Origin: Oscillospiraceae bacterium
GTDB lineage: Bacteria > Bacillota > Clostridia > Oscillospirales > Ruminococcaceae
Assembly: GCA_012729855.1 (NCBI GenBank)
Contig: JAAYCI010000078.1
Span: 1-64,000 of the forward strand
Reading direction: 5' to 3'
Length of the DNA stretch: 64,000 nucleotides
A program made the position numbers and the translations under genes. Every line of letters starts with the position of its first letter. Positions within the stretch are counted from its first letter, which is position 1. Below are positions 31,635-50,420 of the stretch, piece by piece. The notes beneath the pieces are model-generated. The model was given only the letters and a program-made list of their open reading frames with translations. It did no database searches and was not told the origin of the DNA.

Positions 31635-33176
31635 TCAGTCTCCTTTGTGGTATTGCCAGCCGTTTGAATTTGTATCGGGGTGTCCGCCGCTGGTGCCGGG
31701 CCCACCCCCGCCGCTGCGGCGGAAAAGGTGGTTCAGCATGCCGATGGCCAGATGCCATAGGCGCACCAGCTCGGCACGGTACATAAGGCAGTATATCACA
31801 ATAGCGGCGGCGCTGCAGAGCAGTTTTGGCAGAAAATCGTAGGTGAAAAGCGTGCCGGCCAGGGCCAGCGCGATGGCGACCTCCACCGCAATGATGGTTT
31901 TGGGCACGCTGTTGATGGAAACATAGTACCGCTGGGCGGTGAGGGTGCGGAACAGGTACATCAAAAGGTCGGCCACGGCAATGGCAATGGCCGCGCCCAG
32001 CATGCCAAGGGTGGGGGTGAGCAGGACACACAGCACGATGTTGACGATCATGCTGATGGCAATGCCGATGGTATCGAAGATGGGGCGGCGGGCAATGGCG
32101 TTGCCGTACACGGTGGTTTCGCACAGGATGGTGAACACCGCCGATAGCATGACCAGCGGGAAAATGGGCTGCGCGTCCTTAAAGGAGGACAGCACCCAGA
32201 AGATAACGTCCTCAAAAGCCACCAGCAGGGCGAAAAACACCAGGATGACCAGGTAAAGGTAGCCGTGCACCCGCTTGATGCGCTGCTGCTGGGTTTTATA
32301 GTTGGCAAACATGTAGGCGCCCCAGAAAGCGGCAAAGCCCCCCTGCACCATGGTAACGATGTTGGACAGGGAGATGCTGTAGCGGAAAATGCCGCGGGCG
32401 GCCTCGTCCATGAAGGACAGGTACAGGCCGCCGAAGAAGTTGTTCAGTGTTACCATGATGGCCGTGGGCGCCAGCGCCAGGCCGTAGGGCAGCACAACGC
32501 GCACGGCAGGGCCGGCCAAATCGCTTTTGCGGAACACCAGCGCCCGCCGCCGCGTGAAGATGCAAAAGACGGCCAGCGCCCCCCAGCTTATCAGGCTGCA
32601 GGCCACCATGCCCACCATGGGGCTGGGGAACACCAGGCCCACCAGGTAAAACAGCTTGTAGGAAAAGTTCATCAAAATGGTGGTCATGGTGTAGATGCGC
32701 ACGCGCTGCTCCATGCGGTACAGCACCGTAAAGTAGCGCACCACCATCCAGAAAAGCGCATTGAGGAACATCAGGGGGATGGCCTCGGTGCCAATGAGGT
32801 TGAAGTTGAGCGCCTGGTGCAGGGGCCCGGCAAAAAACAGGCTGCACACCAGCCCGGCCACCACCAGGGTGGAGGCGGAAATGTAAAGGCACAGGCGGAA
32901 CAGGCCGCCCGATGTGGTGCGGCCTGGGGGCTCGTTGAAAAAGCGGATGAAGCTTTGGTCCAGCCCCAGGATGGTGAGGGTCATGATCAGGTTGGAGGTG
33001 CCGATGAACTGTTCAATCTCGCCATACAGCGCCTTGTCGCTCTCGCCCGCAAAAAAAACGCTGGACAGAATAAGCGCCGCGCCGGTGAAAATAAAAGAAA
33101 CCACCGTGGAGATGGAGAACTTGAACACCGAGCCGACAAATTGTTCGGCGGTATCGCTTTTGGCTTTGGCGGACAT
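31635..33176 (-). CDS. Wzx-type oligosaccharide flippase / polysaccharide transporter
   Basis: The 513-residue integral membrane protein has about 12-14 hydrophobic helices, the MOP-superfamily layout. The family start EQFVGSVFKFSISTVVSFIF is followed by LGLDQSFIRFFNEPP, typical of Wzx proteins. It would flip lipid-linked repeat units across the membrane. The ATG at 33176 follows AAAGGCGGTGG. Upstream in-frame codons overlap an intergenic repeat and are excluded. It is two bases from the amidotransferase gene. The window also has an ABC exporter, so the region may build two different polymers. Confidence 0.85.
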   Translation of the reverse strand: MSAKAKSDTAEQFVGSVFKFSISTVVSFIFTGAALILSSVFFAGESDKALYGEIEQFIGTSNLIMTLTILGLDQSFIRFFNEPPGRTTSGGLFRLCLYISASTLVVAGLVCSLFFAGPLHQALNFNLIGTEAIPLMFLNALFWMVVRYFTVLYRMEQRVRIYTMTTILMNFSYKLFYLVGLVFPSPMVGMVACSLISWGALAVFCIFTRRRALVFRKSDLAGPAVRVVLPYGLALAPTAIMVTLNNFFGGLYLSFMDEAARGIFRYSISLSNIVTMVQGGFAAFWGAYMFANYKTQQQRIKRVHGYLYLVILVFFALLVAFEDVIFWVLSSFKDAQPIFPLVMLSAVFTILCETTVYGNAIARRPIFDTIGIAISMIVNIVLCVLLTPTLGMLGAAIAIAVADLLMYLFRTLTAQRYYVSINSVPKTIIAVEVAIALALAGTLFTYDFLPKLLCSAAAIVIYCLMYRAELVRLWHLAIGMLNHLFRRSGGGGPGTSGGHPDTNSNGWQYHKGD

Positions 33177-33264
33177 ATTGCCACCGCCTTTCGTTGGGGT
33201 TTGTGGCCGGGCCGGGTGCCGCTGGGTGGCAGGTTCCAACCCAAGGGGTTTATAAGTTCGCTTC

Positions 33265-33419
33265 CCTTGGCTGGTGGGTGTGGCTGTTCGTTGGCGGTAT
33301 TGCAATGTAGGCCACATGGCTACTTATCTAGGCGGGCAACGTCAGTGTGCCGTGCTGGCCCACCGCACGTGGCAGGCATTGCAATACCGGCGGCAGGCAG
33401 ACGCACCCACCAGCCAACA
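33265..33419 (+). repeat. constant-cap hairpin element, copy A
   Basis: Outer arms TTGGCTGGTGGGTG / CACCCACCAGCCAA (14 of 14 complementary) and inner arms GGTATTGCAATG / CATTGCAATACC (12 of 12). The conserved core GGCGGGCAACGTCAGTGTGC is at 33331-33350. It ends eight bases before the stop codon of the minus-strand gene at 33427. Confidence 0.85.
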
Positions 33420-33426
33420 GCAGAGG

Positions 33427-34737
33427 TTAAAGATACCGCCGTACCCTTTCGCGCAAGGCTGCGGCCTGCTTTTTGGGCATGTGGGCTTTCTCGATATAGC
33501 CGTAGATGCGCCCGGCAAAATCGGCGAAACGGGGCAACAGCTTGCGGAACTTTTCGGGCCGCAGCTTGAGCGCGAACAGGATGTGCACGCCGATGAGGGC
33601 GAAAAACTTCAGCCAGTTGAATTTGGGGGTGAAGCCCGCGCTGAAGGGCATATCCCGCGGGGGGTTCTTGCGCACGTCTTCCAGCAGGTTGGCCATGCGC
33701 AGGTAGGCGGGGGTGTCGCTGGCGTCGAAGTAGCCTTCAATGACCTCGGGGGCTATGGGGAAGGGCGGCTTTTTCTCCTGTACCGCATGCTCAAAATCGG
33801 CGTAGGTGGTGAGGGCGGCGGCGTCCCTGTAGATGACGGGGTCGAATTCGTGCGGGATGGGCTGGGGGCGCAGTACGTGGCAGGCCCGCTTGGCGAAGTA
33901 TACCTCGGCGATGGCGGTGCTCATCCAGATGAAGATGCTGTCGGCCGCACGCACCCATTGCTGCACACTGCCGGAGAAGATGACGTGGAAGCCGGGGTGC
34001 TTTTCCGCCAGCGCCGCCAGCGCGGGGCTGTCCCACTCGCTGGGGTGGCGGCGGTATACCAGCTGCGCCTCGGGGTGGGCGGTAAGGATGCGGTCGAACC
34101 AGCTGAGCGTCTCGGCCATGCTCTCGCGGTTTACGCGGGCAAACTCGGTGAAGTCGGTGCCGGCCATTTGGCTCAGCTCGGCCACCTCATCATCGCCCAT
34201 GGACGCATAGCCGAAGCTGGAGACGTAGAGCCAAAGCGGGCGGCGGAAGTCCAGCCCGTGTTCGGCGCAGAGGCCGCGTTTATCTTGGTAGTAGCCAGCG
34301 AACTCGGGACGCAAAAAGTCCAGCATGATGGCCCCGGTAACCGGCGCGTTCTGCTCGGGCACGCCGTGGCCCAGCAGGCGCTGGCGGGTGCGCTGGCCCC
34401 AGCAGGTTTGCACGCACTTTTTGGCGTTGCCGCTGAAATTGAACCAGGGCTCGGCCTCCTGGGTGTCGCTCAGCATCTGCTCCCAGTGCAGGTTTACCAC
34501 CTTGTTGCACACGCCCACGTTGTTGTACACGTGGCTGTTCAGGCCCTCGTTGTCGTACAGGTTGCTGCTTACCACCACGTTGGGCTTGCGCCAGGTAAAG
34601 TATTTCAGCTTCTTGCGGTCCAGCAGCTGGGCGATGTCCACCGTATAGCCGCGGCGGCGCAGTTCTTCCGCCAGCAGGGTGATGCTCTCGTACTCGCGCA
34701 CCACGTGCTCGTACAGAATCAGGAAATCAAGTGGCAT
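33427..34737 (-). CDS. surface-carbohydrate biosynthesis protein (putative GT-B type transferase)
   Basis: The 436-residue protein begins LILYEHVVREYESITLLAEE, an opening I associate with the 'surface carbohydrate biosynthesis protein' group found in polysaccharide loci. HPEAQLVYRRHPSEWDSP and a following SIFIWMSTAIAEVYFAKRAC resemble the donor-binding half of GT-B or CDP-polyol phosphotransferase enzymes. There is no signal peptide. A hydrophobic stretch near FALIGVHILFAL could touch the membrane. Substrate unknown. AAGGAGG precedes the ATG. Hairpin elements bracket the gene on both sides. Confidence 0.65.
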   Translation of the reverse strand: MPLDFLILYEHVVREYESITLLAEELRRRGYTVDIAQLLDRKKLKYFTWRKPNVVVSSNLYDNEGLNSHVYNNVGVCNKVVNLHWEQMLSDTQEAEPWFNFSGNAKKCVQTCWGQRTRQRLLGHGVPEQNAPVTGAIMLDFLRPEFAGYYQDKRGLCAEHGLDFRRPLWLYVSSFGYASMGDDEVAELSQMAGTDFTEFARVNRESMAETLSWFDRILTAHPEAQLVYRRHPSEWDSPALAALAEKHPGFHVIFSGSVQQWVRAADSIFIWMSTAIAEVYFAKRACHVLRPQPIPHEFDPVIYRDAAALTTYADFEHAVQEKKPPFPIAPEVIEGYFDASDTPAYLRMANLLEDVRKNPPRDMPFSAGFTPKFNWLKFFALIGVHILFALKLRPEKFRKLLPRFADFAGRIYGYIEKAHMPKKQAAALRERVRRYL

Positions 34738-34760
34738 GGGGCCTCCTTGTGGCTTGCTGT

Positions 34761-34907
34761 GTTGGGCTGCCGCCAGCCGCCCGGTGCGGGCATACCGCTG
34801 GGCGGCACCAGCGGGTGGTGGGCTTTGCACACTGACGTTGCCTGCCAAAGTAAGTAGCTGTACCGCCCAGCGGTATGCCCGCGCCGAGCAGCTGGCGGCA
34901 ACCCAAG
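34761..34907 (-). repeat. constant-cap hairpin element, copy C (different arms)
   Basis: The outer arms are TTGGGCTGCCGCCAGC / GCTGGCGGCAACCCAA and the inner arms GGGCATACCGCTGGGCGG / CCGCCCAGCGGTATGCCC (18 of 18). The core GGCAGGCAACGTCAGTGTGC lies on the minus strand (34846-34827). The arms share nothing with copies A, B, D or F. Confidence 0.85.
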
Positions 34908-34930
34908 GGTAGCATAGAAGAAGGTTTCCC

Positions 34931-35164
34931 TTGGCTGGTGGGTGTGGCTGTTCGTTGCCGGCACTGCAATGCCAGGCACATGGCTGCTTATCCAGGCCAC
35001 CCACGCCTCGCGCCCTAAGGGCGCTCTTGCGCAGGCTCGCCGGTTTGCTTTGCAAGCCCGGCCCGGCCCTAAAGGGCCCCGGCAACGTCAGTGTGCCGAA
35101 GCTGGCCCATCGCGCGTGGCGGGCATCGCCGTGCCGGCGGCGAGCAGACGCGCCCGCCAGCCAA
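34931..35164 (+). repeat. constant-cap hairpin element, copy B, with nested insertion
   Basis: The left arm TTGGCTGGTGGGTG and right arm CGCCCGCCAGCCAA are complementary with G-T tolerance, with GCCGGCACTGCAATGCC facing GGCATCGCCGTGCCGGC. The core GGCAACGTCAGTGTGC is at 35081-35096. Bases 34998-35080 are an extra 83-base segment absent from other copies that matches 17530-17650. It ends ten bases before the stop of the minus-strand gene at 35175. Confidence 0.8.
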
Positions 35165-35174
35165 CACAGGCAGC

Positions 35175-36113
35175 TCAGGCAATAGCCGAAAACAGCATCT
35201 CCGTCCACTGGGGCAGGCCGCGCTGGTAGTCCAGGTGCAGGCCGTCGAAGAACTGGTCGTCGGTGAAGGCGGGGCGATTTGTCAGCTCGTAGTCCAGCAC
35301 CTCGGCGGGGCTTTGCTTCAGGTCCTCCACCATGGGCAGCATTTGGGCTTCAATGCCGGTGGGGCGCACCTCGTGCTGCAGCACGGCGCTGTGCATGGGG
35401 GGCATTACCACCACAAAGCGGATGCCGCGCGCGTGGCAGGTGTTGATGATTTCAAGCAGGCGGGCGAACGCCTCGGTGTCCGGCTGCCAGCTTTGGGTGT
35501 AGCCGCCGATGCTGTCCATGTAATCGACGATATCCTGCCGCAGCGCAACAGTTTCGCCGGTGGCGGGGTCGGTGTAGTCCACATAGGTATAGCTGGCGGG
35601 GTCGCGGGTTTCGGTTTCGCCGCCGCCCAGTACGCCGCCGCCCAGGCTGATGACCAGGTTCTGCAGCAGCTCCAGGTTATAGCTGAGGTTGGTGAGCAGC
35701 GCAAACGGGTTGTACAGGGAGGTCTCGATGGCGGAGAAGCGGTCCTGGTCGTAGCTTTGGTTCATATTATAAAAGGTAAAGCCGAACACCACCTCGTCCA
35801 GCTGGGGGTAGCGGGCCAGCAGCCATTCCAGCTCGTCCAGGCATTCGTTCAGTGAGGCGCCGCCAAAGGCCAGGTTGGTGAAGGGCCGGCCGGTGATGCG
35901 CTCCACCGCGTCCATATCAAAGTGCGCCATGCGGGAGTCGCCCAAAATGACGCTGGTGGTGGGCTGGGCGCGGTACTGGCCCAGGGTAGCCACCGGGGTG
36001 GCCCCGGGGATGGCCTTGGGCAGCCCGACACTTCCCACAAAGCCCAGAAATACGCCGTAATACAGCAGAATGGGCAGCAGGAGCAGAATGATGTTGCGAA
36101 TGAGTTTTTTCAT
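35175..36113 (-). CDS. SGNH-hydrolase-like membrane-anchored partner of the MBOAT protein
   Basis: This 312-residue protein has an N-terminal membrane anchor (about 7-28). It carries SGNH-type blocks: SVILGDSRMAHFD (block I, Ser/Asp), LAFGGASLNECL (block II-like Gly) and FFDGLHLDY (Asp/His of the last block). Similar proteins (DltD, AlgJ/AlgX, PatB types) accept an acyl group from an MBOAT protein and place it on a polymer outside the membrane. It directly follows the MBOAT gene with no gap, supporting that role. The acceptor here may be the nonulosonate-containing glycan. Confidence 0.78.
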   Translation of the reverse strand: MKKLIRNIILLLLPILLYYGVFLGFVGSVGLPKAIPGATPVATLGQYRAQPTTSVILGDSRMAHFDMDAVERITGRPFTNLAFGGASLNECLDELEWLLARYPQLDEVVFGFTFYNMNQSYDQDRFSAIETSLYNPFALLTNLSYNLELLQNLVISLGGGVLGGGETETRDPASYTYVDYTDPATGETVALRQDIVDYMDSIGGYTQSWQPDTEAFARLLEIINTCHARGIRFVVVMPPMHSAVLQHEVRPTGIEAQMLPMVEDLKQSPAEVLDYELTNRPAFTDDQFFDGLHLDYQRGLPQWTEMLFSAIA

Positions 36114-37715
36114 CTATATGTTACCATAAATAAAGTTGCCCTCGAACCCGCCGCTTTGGGCCAGGAAGCCGACAAAGCAGCACAGCACAATGAGGAAATA
36201 CAGCAGGAACTTAGGCGCTGTGCGCAGGCTTTGCAGCCAGCCGGACAGCTGCGCGCCCTTGAGGCGGTAGTTTTGGAACCAGTCGGCCCACAGGGCAAGG
36301 CAGAGGGCGAAGAGTGAAAACAGCAGGAACAGCGCCACCATGAAGGGTTTGTTGAAGAAGCCGTTTGCGATGGCGGCGGTGATGTCCTGCCCCACCTGTG
36401 CCAGTGATACCGGCAAAAACTGCCGCACCAGCGCCGACGCTGCCGAAGCGACGCTGCCGCCGTCGGTGCCCACCTTGAAGAAAACCAGGCTCTCCACCCA
36501 CAGCGCCAGCACGATGACCGTTTTGCCCGCGCGCAGCCAGGGGTTCAGCTTCTTTTTGGGCTTGCCCAGCGTGCGGTGCAGCACCTCTTCGCCAATACGG
36601 TAAACGGCCTGCAGGGCGCCCCATATCAGGAAGCACAGGGTGTCGCCGTGCCATATGCCCGAGATGAGGAAGGTGGCGGCCAGCGCGGTGAGCACCGGCG
36701 GCTTGTGCACATGCTTGCCGATGATGGGCAGCTTTTCGGTCCAGCGGCTCCACACCAGCGGGGTGAAGATATAGTCTTGCAGCCAGCTGGACAGGCTGAT
36801 GTGCCAGCGCTGCCAGAAGAGTGAGAAGTTGGTGGCAAAGTAGGGGTTGGCAAAGTTTTCGGGCAGCTTGATGCCCAGCAGCTGCGCGGTGCCAATGGCG
36901 ATGTCGGAGTAGCCGGAGAAGTCAAAATACAGCTGCAACGCGTAGGCAATTGCCGCCAGTGTGAGGGTGAGGCCCTGGTACTCGGGTAGGTTGCCATAGA
37001 TGGCGCCTGTAAAAACGGCCAGGGTGTCGGCCACGGCCAGCTTTTTAAAGTAGCCGATGGCCATGCGGCGCAGGCCGTCGGCGGCGGAGGCTGCGTCAAA
37101 GCGGCGGGTGTCGTCCTTCAGCTGGGGCAGCAGGCCGCCCGCGCGCGAGATGGGGCCCATGGTCACCGACGGGAAAAACCCGATAAAGAGCGCGTAGTTC
37201 AGCAGGTTTTTCTCGGCGGGGGTGTCTTCGCGGTAAACGTCGAACAGGTAGCCGATGGCCGTGAAGGTGTAAAAGCTGATGCCCAGCGCGCCGGCGGTGG
37301 TGAAGAAGCCGCTGTCGTACGGGATGCCGATGCTATGAAGCGGCGCAGAAAGAAAAGTGGCGAAAAAGCCGTTATACTTAAAGAATGCCAGCCCCAGCAC
37401 CGCGCCGGCCACCGCGAACACCACCCAGCCGCGCCTGGCGCCCATGCTTTTGGCGCCGCCAATGGCCCGGCCGCACAGGTAGGTGAACAGCGTGCCCAAA
37501 AGCAGTACCGGCAGGTATTTGGGCGCGGCCCAGAAGTAGAAGTAGTAGCTGGCAATAAGCAGCCAGGGCCGGCGCAGCCGTGCCGGGAACAGAAAATAGA
37601 CCCCCACGGCGAGGGGCAGGAATAACAGGAAATGTACCGACGACAGGCTGAGGCGCCAGGCGTCGGTGACGGCGGAAAAGGCGGACAGGATGCCGCCGGC
37701 CTCGGCAAAAAGCAT
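36114..37715 (-). CDS. MBOAT-family O-acyltransferase
   Basis: This 533-residue polytopic membrane enzyme (about 11-12 helices) moves acyl groups from cytoplasmic donors to the outside. ISFYTFTAIGYLFDVYRED is followed by PSVTMGPISRAGGLLPQ and by FWQRWHISLSSWLQDY. The catalytic-histidine segment is LISGIWHGDTLCF. This is the AlgI/DltB layout. AAAGGAG precedes the ATG. It is the first gene of the minus-strand glycan operon and has a strong promoter, with the SGNH partner next. Confidence 0.92.
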   Translation of the reverse strand: MLFAEAGGILSAFSAVTDAWRLSLSSVHFLLFLPLAVGVYFLFPARLRRPWLLIASYYFYFWAAPKYLPVLLLGTLFTYLCGRAIGGAKSMGARRGWVVFAVAGAVLGLAFFKYNGFFATFLSAPLHSIGIPYDSGFFTTAGALGISFYTFTAIGYLFDVYREDTPAEKNLLNYALFIGFFPSVTMGPISRAGGLLPQLKDDTRRFDAASAADGLRRMAIGYFKKLAVADTLAVFTGAIYGNLPEYQGLTLTLAAIAYALQLYFDFSGYSDIAIGTAQLLGIKLPENFANPYFATNFSLFWQRWHISLSSWLQDYIFTPLVWSRWTEKLPIIGKHVHKPPVLTALAATFLISGIWHGDTLCFLIWGALQAVYRIGEEVLHRTLGKPKKKLNPWLRAGKTVIVLALWVESLVFFKVGTDGGSVASAASALVRQFLPVSLAQVGQDITAAIANGFFNKPFMVALFLLFSLFALCLALWADWFQNYRLKGAQLSGWLQSLRTAPKFLLYFLIVLCCFVGFLAQSGGFEGNFIYGNI

Positions 37716-40757: not shown

Positions 40758-40905
40758 TGCCGCGTAGGCTCGTAGTTTATGGGCAGGACCATTCTTTTTG
40801 TCTCGCCAAAAAGCAACAAAAAGCGCCCGGGGCACCCATTACAACGGCTTCGCGATACAAAGTAAGGGCAAAGTCAAGACAGACACAATAACAAGCATGT
40901 TACCC
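40758..40905. other. intergenic, no gene seen
   Basis: The stretch between the DUF2142 gene and repeat copy D holds no supported frame or clear terminator. It ends in an A-rich segment, CAAGACAGACACAATAACAAGC. Confidence 0.4.
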
Positions 40906-41056
40906 TTGGCTGGTGGGTGGGGCTGTTCGGTGGCGGTACTGCAATATCCGCCACATTGCTGCTTCACTTGGCAGGCAACGTCAGTGTGCCCTGCTACTTC
41001 CCCGCACGTGGCGGAAATTGCAGTAGCGGCGGCGGGCGGCCGCGCACGCCAGCCAA
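40906..41056 (+). repeat. constant-cap hairpin element, copy D
   Basis: Arms TTGGCTGG / CCAGCCAA outside and TACTGCAATATCCGCCAC facing GTGGCGGAAATTGCAGTA inside. The core GGCAGGCAACGTCAGTGTGC is at 40970-40989. Where copy A has TATTGC on both arms, this copy has TACTGC on both, a compensated change. It lies about 110 bases before legC. Confidence 0.85.
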
Positions 41057-41167
41057 CACAGCCGACCAACCGCTTCACGTGCGTCCCTGCTTCCGCTTGT
41101 GCCAATACTAAGATGCTGCAGATGTGCAGTCTTGCACTTATGCTTGAAATAGGAGTGTATCATTCTA

Positions 41168-50093: not shown

Positions 50094-50109
50094 GGGACGG
50101 CTTGTGTGT

Positions 50110-50255
50110 ATGGGCACGGCGCTTGCCGTTTTCCACGGGTGCACCGTCAGGCGCCACCAGCGGGCGGTGGGCTTTGCACACTGACGTTGCCTGCCTGGAT
50201 AAGTGGCTTGTGCCGCCTGCCGGTGCACCCGCACCGGACAGTAAGCGCCATGCCA
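50110..50255 (-). repeat. constant-cap hairpin element, copy E (third arm type)
   Basis: The inner arms GGGTGCACCG / CGGTGCACCC are perfectly complementary. The outer arms GGCACGGCGCTTGCCG / AGTAAGCGCCATGCC match imperfectly. The core GGCAGGCAACGTCAGTGTGC is on the minus strand (50195-50176). The arms are unrelated to those of the other copies, but GCACACTGACGTTGCCTGCC is identical to copy C. Confidence 0.8.
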
Positions 50256-50285
50256 AGGGTGGCTGGGAAAAGGACAGGATTACGC

Positions 50286-50420
50286 TTGGCTGGCAGGGGT
50301 GACTGTTCGTTGCCGGTGCTGCAATGCCAGCCACATTGCTGCTTTACCAGGCAGGCAGTGTAAGCGTGCAAAGCTCAACATCTGCACGTGGCAGGCATCG
50401 CAGTGCCGGCGGCAGACTTG
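50286..50420 (+). repeat. constant-cap hairpin element, copy F (diverged core)
   Basis: The left arm TTGGCTGG with CCGGTGCTGCAATGCCAGCCAC faces GTGGCAGGCATCGCAGTGCCGG. The core reads GGCAGGCAGTGTAAGCGTGC (50350-50369), changed in the middle. The right outer arm is lost. It lies about 30 bases after the oppositely oriented copy E, as copy B lies beside copy C. Confidence 0.75.

Follow-up and report, generated by a model that had tools for sequence, protein, structure and literature searches.

The six hairpin elements in the window, the 64,000-base stretch analysed here, are best explained as members of a mobile, non-coding repeat family of narrow distribution, whose fold is constrained on one strand and of which one two-element composite has been copied, a reading to which we give a probability of roughly 60%. 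The hairpin family itself, narrowly distributed and with a stem that covaries in a strand-specific way, is a stronger finding than the pairing of its members. In the proposed sequence of events, the elements would have spread singly into intergenic places, where they often have their 3′ end beside a stop codon that belongs to a facing ORF. On one occasion, members of two different subfamilies would have come to lie head to head, and this composite would then have been copied whole, without its flanks, to a place 15 kb away. The homology of the two composites is apparent from sequence comparison, and we infer the direction and mechanism of copying. Candidate copying agents are a reverse transcriptase, a transposase other than Y1, or recombination.

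Elements in the window and in the genome

The window comprises bases 1-64000 of contig C72 of genome G000, which is 94% complete and has 113 contigs totalling 2,585,179 bases. The elements of the window measure about 165 nt each, with ends that were placed by eye and are accurate to a few bases. Elements A (33260..33424, plus strand; 103.2 bits with model R1) and D (40893..41064, plus strand; 106.4 bits) are single. The other four form two head-to-head pairs with facing 5′ ends. In the first pair, C (34752..34913, minus strand; 105 bits) lies to the left of B (34923..35170, plus strand; 37.8 bits), and in the second, E (50100..50263, minus strand; 97.4 bits), the homologue of C, lies to the left of F (50281..50420, plus strand; 92.2 bits), which is closest to B. 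The core GCAACGTCAGTGTGC occurs without mismatch at 33336(+), 34827(-), 35082(+), 40975(+) and 50176(-), and element F has the diverged variant GCAGTGTAAGCGTGC at 50355(+). The initial annotation had described the minus-plus order and the short spacers of C-B and E-F correctly, and core positions and R1 matches bear out its description of A and D as single. The inverted arms of C (34762-34808 and 34860-34906) are 47 nt long with 89% complementarity. Element B carries an 83-nt insert domain in its apex (34998..35080, plus strand), a member of a second repeat family, which accounts for its low R1 score, and the 3′ end of B abuts the stop codon of an ORF at 35175-36113(-). Both E and F are partly decayed; in F, the core has diverged and the outer 3′ arm is lost.

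Genome G000 holds at least 32 elements, 26 without a full partner and six in three close pairs. Allowing up to one mismatch, a search for the 16-base core gave 30 places, compared with 0 for the reversed control; as 30 of the 32 elements were found through the core, its invariance is partly by construction. Model R1, built from 26 elements, returned 36 rows at E ≤0.01, of which 29 are elements and 7 are shadows of these on the opposite strand. R1 added element F, and a search with the insert added an insert-type element with a damaged core (C15:11414). The total of 32 is a lower bound, given that R1 scored 150 of 4,359 candidates and that repeats break assemblies. A looser core pattern matched 45 times, as opposed to 2 in the control, and these matches comprise 31 known elements and 14 further places. 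Ten of the latter were scanned with R1 and yielded no further element; the remaining four (C79, C86 and two in C94) lie outside the R1 scan.

A hairpin constrained on one strand

Each element is a full hairpin with a stem of about 45 bp, nearly free in sequence, and a conserved apex of about 60 nt that holds the small hairpin GCAAC-GTCA-GTGTGC. This apical hairpin is invariant in the 26 elements chosen by their core and shows drift in F and in the C15 element. For 26 aligned elements, RNAalifold gives 52 pairs, 37 of them with double compensatory changes. Double-changed cells number 228, compared with 67.6 in shuffled alignments (0 of 500 shuffles reached as many), and with the consensus structure 92.8% of cells are paired, as opposed to 76.1% in shuffled and 25-47% in slid versions. 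As this alignment was also the source of the structure, a mismatch test of arm against arm weighs more.

In this test, the 5′ arm was aligned to the reverse complement of the 3′ arm with a scoring that is neutral between G.T and A.C. The 32 elements contain 185 G.T, 37 A.C and 112 other mismatches; G.T exceeds A.C in 31 of them, and A.C exceeds G.T in none. The alignment of 26 elements likewise has 151 G.T against 23 A.C, an excess that is partly made up of inherited majority wobbles and to which related copies do not contribute independently; outside columns with a majority wobble the counts are 115 against 23. For 29 of 32 elements, the element strand has the more stable fold of the two. In the 20 elements for which a close relative exists, changes on one side only amount to 46 G.T, 15 A.C and 26 other departures, and double changes keep Watson-Crick pairing in 40 cases and break it in 3; these counts share history and are thus not independent.

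The covarying stems together with the one-strand excess of G.T indicate a single-stranded fold under constraint. A double-stranded cruciform or arm-to-arm correction would favour neither strand. The constrained form is the strand bearing GGCAACGTCAGTGTGC, as the covariation and the one-sided wobbles show. Whether this strand acts as RNA or as single-stranded DNA fits the data alike, and we consider RNA more likely. The strand-specific constraint is visible between close relatives as well, and for this reason copying would most likely proceed through an intermediate, at the level of RNA or ssDNA, that has to fold.

The usual view of small repeats in bacteria is that of DNA parasites whose ends are conserved. 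In the hairpin family, the stem sequence is almost free and pairing on one strand is kept, so that a folded RNA or ssDNA as the copied form becomes directly testable. Covariation and strand-specific wobbles are the marks of a structured single-stranded element (RNA or ssDNA), and both are present. Integron attC sites also keep their structure while the stem sequence varies, and one of their strands is active. The hairpin family resembles them in conserving structure over sequence and in having one strand as the constrained form, but inspection by eye revealed no attC boxes.

A known RNA family was rejected for lack of an Rfam match at gathering score. Searched against Rfam 15, the window gave nothing but a tRNA at gathering score, and the six loci gave 15 hits at E up to 5, 0 of them at gathering score. 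The best of these were miRNA hairpin models, namely MIR898 (47.1 bits, E 2.5e-7, gathering score 75) and MIR3454 (45.7 bits, gathering score 142).

Homologous pairs and their arrangement

The two pairs in the window had been regarded as independent, a view that match ranks, a tree and an alignment spanning the junction contradict. When all elements were scored against one another, C and E each had the other as best match (64, compared with 53.5 and 55.5 for the next). The best match of F is B (68, compared with 58.5 for the next), and B in turn matches A best, with F in 12th place. Random draws of two pairs matched equally well in 62 of 200,000 cases. In the tree of 32 elements, C and E are sisters (99/99), and B and F group with weak support (89/74). 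BLAST with 33430-36200 as query aligned 34801-34997 to 50150-50352 in one alignment of 77% identity that runs across the junction and spacer, and the reverse search agreed; no other alignment between the two regions, and hence no flank homology, was listed. The homology of the spacers alone was not significant (P 0.24), and the insert present in B is absent from F.

As each member of one pair has its homologue in the other and the homology extends over the junction, at least these two pairs go back to one origin and one act of copying. This partly supports the earlier proposal of a functional or mobile unit of two elements: one composite pair was copied whole at least once, in either direction, but pairing is not general, as 26 of the 32 elements are without a full partner. 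Composites of such repeats can thus be copied whole, and this explains the repeated arrangement without giving the pair a function. In addition, the best match lies in the same contig for 5 of 32 elements, all in C72 (1.6 in label shuffles, P 0.024), which suggests local copying.

Cores at most 400 nt apart occur in C/B, E/F and a third pair, C95:3556(-)/3882(+). The initial annotation had named a genome-wide lack of preference for paired divergent copies as the outcome that would speak against its unit. The catalogue largely has this outcome, yet all three full pairs share the minus-plus order. How surprising three close pairs among 32 elements are depends on how much of the genome is open to insertion: in simulations, P was 0.0005 with the whole genome open, 0.08 at 15%, 0.18 at 10% and 0.58 at 5%. 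Because the open fraction had to be assumed, closeness by itself carries little weight as evidence, and three close pairs would be no surprise in a genome that accepts insertions in its intergenic DNA only. Moreover, two of the three pairs are copies, which leaves at most two independent pair origins. The pairs might therefore be taken to result from independent insertions into the same tolerant intergenic spots, either by chance or by a preference for the vicinity of an older copy. The P values at 10-15% open genome would allow this, and the C95 pair has no special kinship to the other two (ranks 5 to 30), but the single origin and copying indicated for C-B and E-F make it an unlikely account overall.

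Tandem arrangements occur as well. Half-elements follow the full elements of contigs C39 and C53 in tandem, and these full elements, as well as that of contig C25, are counted among the 26 singles. Given such partial copies, the inverted order is not the sole arrangement and pairing is no rule.

For the comparison with REP, REPIN, BOX and RUP elements we draw on parts of three reports. REPINs are there described as inverted REP doublets associated with Y1-type transposases, with inverted doublets predominant and a ratio of singlets to doublets below two (PMC3116915). If the hairpin family were of this kind, what moves would be the inverted pair, mobilised by a REP-associated tyrosine transposase, and single elements would be remnants of it. 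All three close pairs are indeed inverted, although two of them are copies of one; one pair was copied whole, and the portion of the source used puts the inverted share of the 430 REP doublets of P. fluorescens at 93% (PMC3116915). However, 26 singles face 3 doublets (a ratio of 8.7), and 22 of the 23 unpartnered elements scored by R1 reach at least 88 bits. Pair members are no better conserved than the rest (mean score 44.2 compared with 52.3, P 0.07), and every element is a full hairpin by itself. C-B folds as two separate hairpins, the joint fold having -264.4 kcal/mol compared with -263.0 kcal/mol for the parts (a gain of 1.4 with 12 crossing pairs), though E-F gains a little jointly (4.3 kcal/mol, 72 crossing pairs), so that the outcome for folding into one hairpin is mixed. 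Furthermore, Y1_Tnp (PF01797) had 0 matches in the 94% complete G000, while controls matched in 5 of 14 genomes. A REPIN-like origin is hence very improbable. The search for a mobilising enzyme covered Y1_Tnp and identified none, and an origin from REP/RAYT was rejected on the lack of a Y1 transposase in G000. The family is not a REPIN but a new, narrowly distributed structured repeat.

As far as the parts of the reports used here describe them, the REP and REPIN elements of Pseudomonas and E. coli resemble the hairpin family in being interspersed extragenic palindromes with inverted doublets and a composite that can be copied as a unit. They differ from it in that the family has elements of about 165 nt with a hypervariable covarying stem, is mostly single and comes without a detected Y1 transposase, and in that a REPIN forms one hairpin, unlike C-B. 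Pneumococcal BOX elements are portrayed, again in part of the source, as nearly species-restricted, tightly folded and clustered, with an optional central module and nested insertions (PMC3049150), and the hairpin family shares each of these traits, being modular and inserted into one another. For BOX and RUP, the same portion reports terminal inverted repeats and target-site duplications (PMC3049150), whereas the arm sequence of the hairpin family is not conserved and no target-site duplication was seen.

Distribution, genomic places and nested repeats

Within the genus, the family was found in 1 of 5 genomes, the other four being 63-78% complete, and BLAST with element A gave one weak match in the relative G002 (E 0.008). 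At the family level, no match was obtained in 296 other genomes with the model and the exact pattern (1/297 positive), and at the order level, in a sample that overlaps the former, the model found none in 393 others (1/394 positive); these large model searches used stricter filters, with 12 or 9 candidates scored per genome. The genes next to C-B are adjacent without the pair in 4 of 4 genus relatives, where the unaligned gap measures 10 (G001), 28 (G003), 77 (G004) and 207 bases (G002), compared with 430 to 465 in the window. The sites in the relatives are too diverged to fix the insertion point, and no genome of the same species was among those compared. The absence from all four relatives suggests that C-B was probably gained in the lineage of G000, between two closely spaced genes of the same direction. 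The neighbour genes of E-F were not found side by side in the genus relatives, which thus offer no empty site, and at the site of element A the relatives have other DNA and no clean empty site.

Two further observations concern these sites. At the C-B site, G002 carries a different insert (L260 2777-2983), whose ends, CATACCAATTGAAAG and CTTGAAATTGGTATT, are palindromic by eye. Where element A sits (33200-33430), three genus relatives (L258, L259 and L260) have, by eye, a small open frame.

Spread by phages or plasmids was rejected, as a blastn search of 50,697 phage records and 72,556 plasmid records with element A gave no match and R1 is weak on viral contigs, reaching at best 18.8 bits (E 0.31) on the 18 that share the 16-mer. 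A 15-mer scan of genome contigs gave at least 114 stretches from unrelated taxa, and among the 80 listed each has one match, except one with two. A survey of literature on palindromic and inverted repeats, Faecalibacterium, Clostridia and Ruminococcaceae, which covered few subscription papers, revealed nothing on the hairpin family.

In 14 of 32 elements, a stop codon that closes an ORF of at least 200 aa lies 3′ of the core at a distance of 70-90 nt; 5′ of the element, in the slightly broader zone of 55-90 nt measured from the apex, this applies to 3 of 32. Both counts follow a longest-ORF rule instead of gene calls. A crude orientation rule, which misread the neighbours of C and B, classed the flanking ORFs of 28 of 30 elements, relative to the element, as (-,-) in 14, (+,+) in 7, (+,-) in 6 and (-,+) in 1. 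The stop-codon neighbourhood recalls E. coli REPs, for which part of one report describes an effect on translation within 15 nt of a stop codon (PMC12306157). The elements might accordingly be resident regulatory structures (3′-UTR hairpins, terminators or antisense RNAs) that are kept for the host, with pairs serving two neighbouring genes. Yet the mRNA of the facing gene would carry the strand on which the wobbles are not kept, and this argues against a 3′-UTR function as the constrained one. Four relatives lack the pair at the same place, the family matched in 1 of 297 genomes, and a pattern scan of 33000-36200 found no promoter-like site and, within C-B, no terminator-like site. A promoter-like site near E-F (50467-50439, minus strand) lies outside the pair. 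Taken together, a resident regulatory role is quite improbable, and we favour a mobile structured repeat.

A target-site duplication, as known from MITEs, was not found above the null for ends known to a few bases: flank repeats of at least 7 bases occur in 2 of 32 elements and in 8% of mismatched flanks. The sequence CTTGTGTGT stands at both outer ends of E-F in direct order (50101 and 50417) and occurs nowhere else on the window's plus strand, but at least 9 bases are shared in 6.5% of mismatched flanks.

The insert domain is present in five of 32 elements with a length of 83-124 nt, and its position in the apex is the same to within a base or two across carriers. It belongs to a second, freely occurring repeat family with 27 alignment rows in G000, which include split pieces of one place and the copies inside the five carriers; the alignment of this family took in seven examples. 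The carriers are scattered on the element tree, with at least five changes, and a single clade was rejected (p 0.0146); repeated landing and repeated loss are both possible causes. Tentatively, the hairpin family could be a bacterial counterpart of SINEs, a structured RNA or ssDNA that spreads in one species by its strand-specific fold, can be copied as two-element composites and has an apex into which a second structured repeat would have landed repeatedly, though we regard this reading as doubtful.

The insert family, with the pattern CCCACGCCTCG...CTCTTGCGG... (34998-35080; L214-L238), is abundant and, by eye, forms nested hairpins. Its copies near C89 and C65 end on the stop codon of the neighbouring ORF, and some copies hold further modules inside the first hairpin. 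In contig C25 (L138), again by eye, a 5′ half-element with insert precedes the full element, which seems to be seated in a hairpin loop of that preceding insert. Finally, a leader repeat around GGCTCCGCGATACAAATAAAGGTCAAGGTCAAGACCGG, in some cases also with CTTTCTTGTAACCAAGAAAGTAACAAAGAAG, lies upstream of the elements at L118, L120, L127, L131, L136, L140 and L143. As several elements share this leader, longer composites seem to exist.
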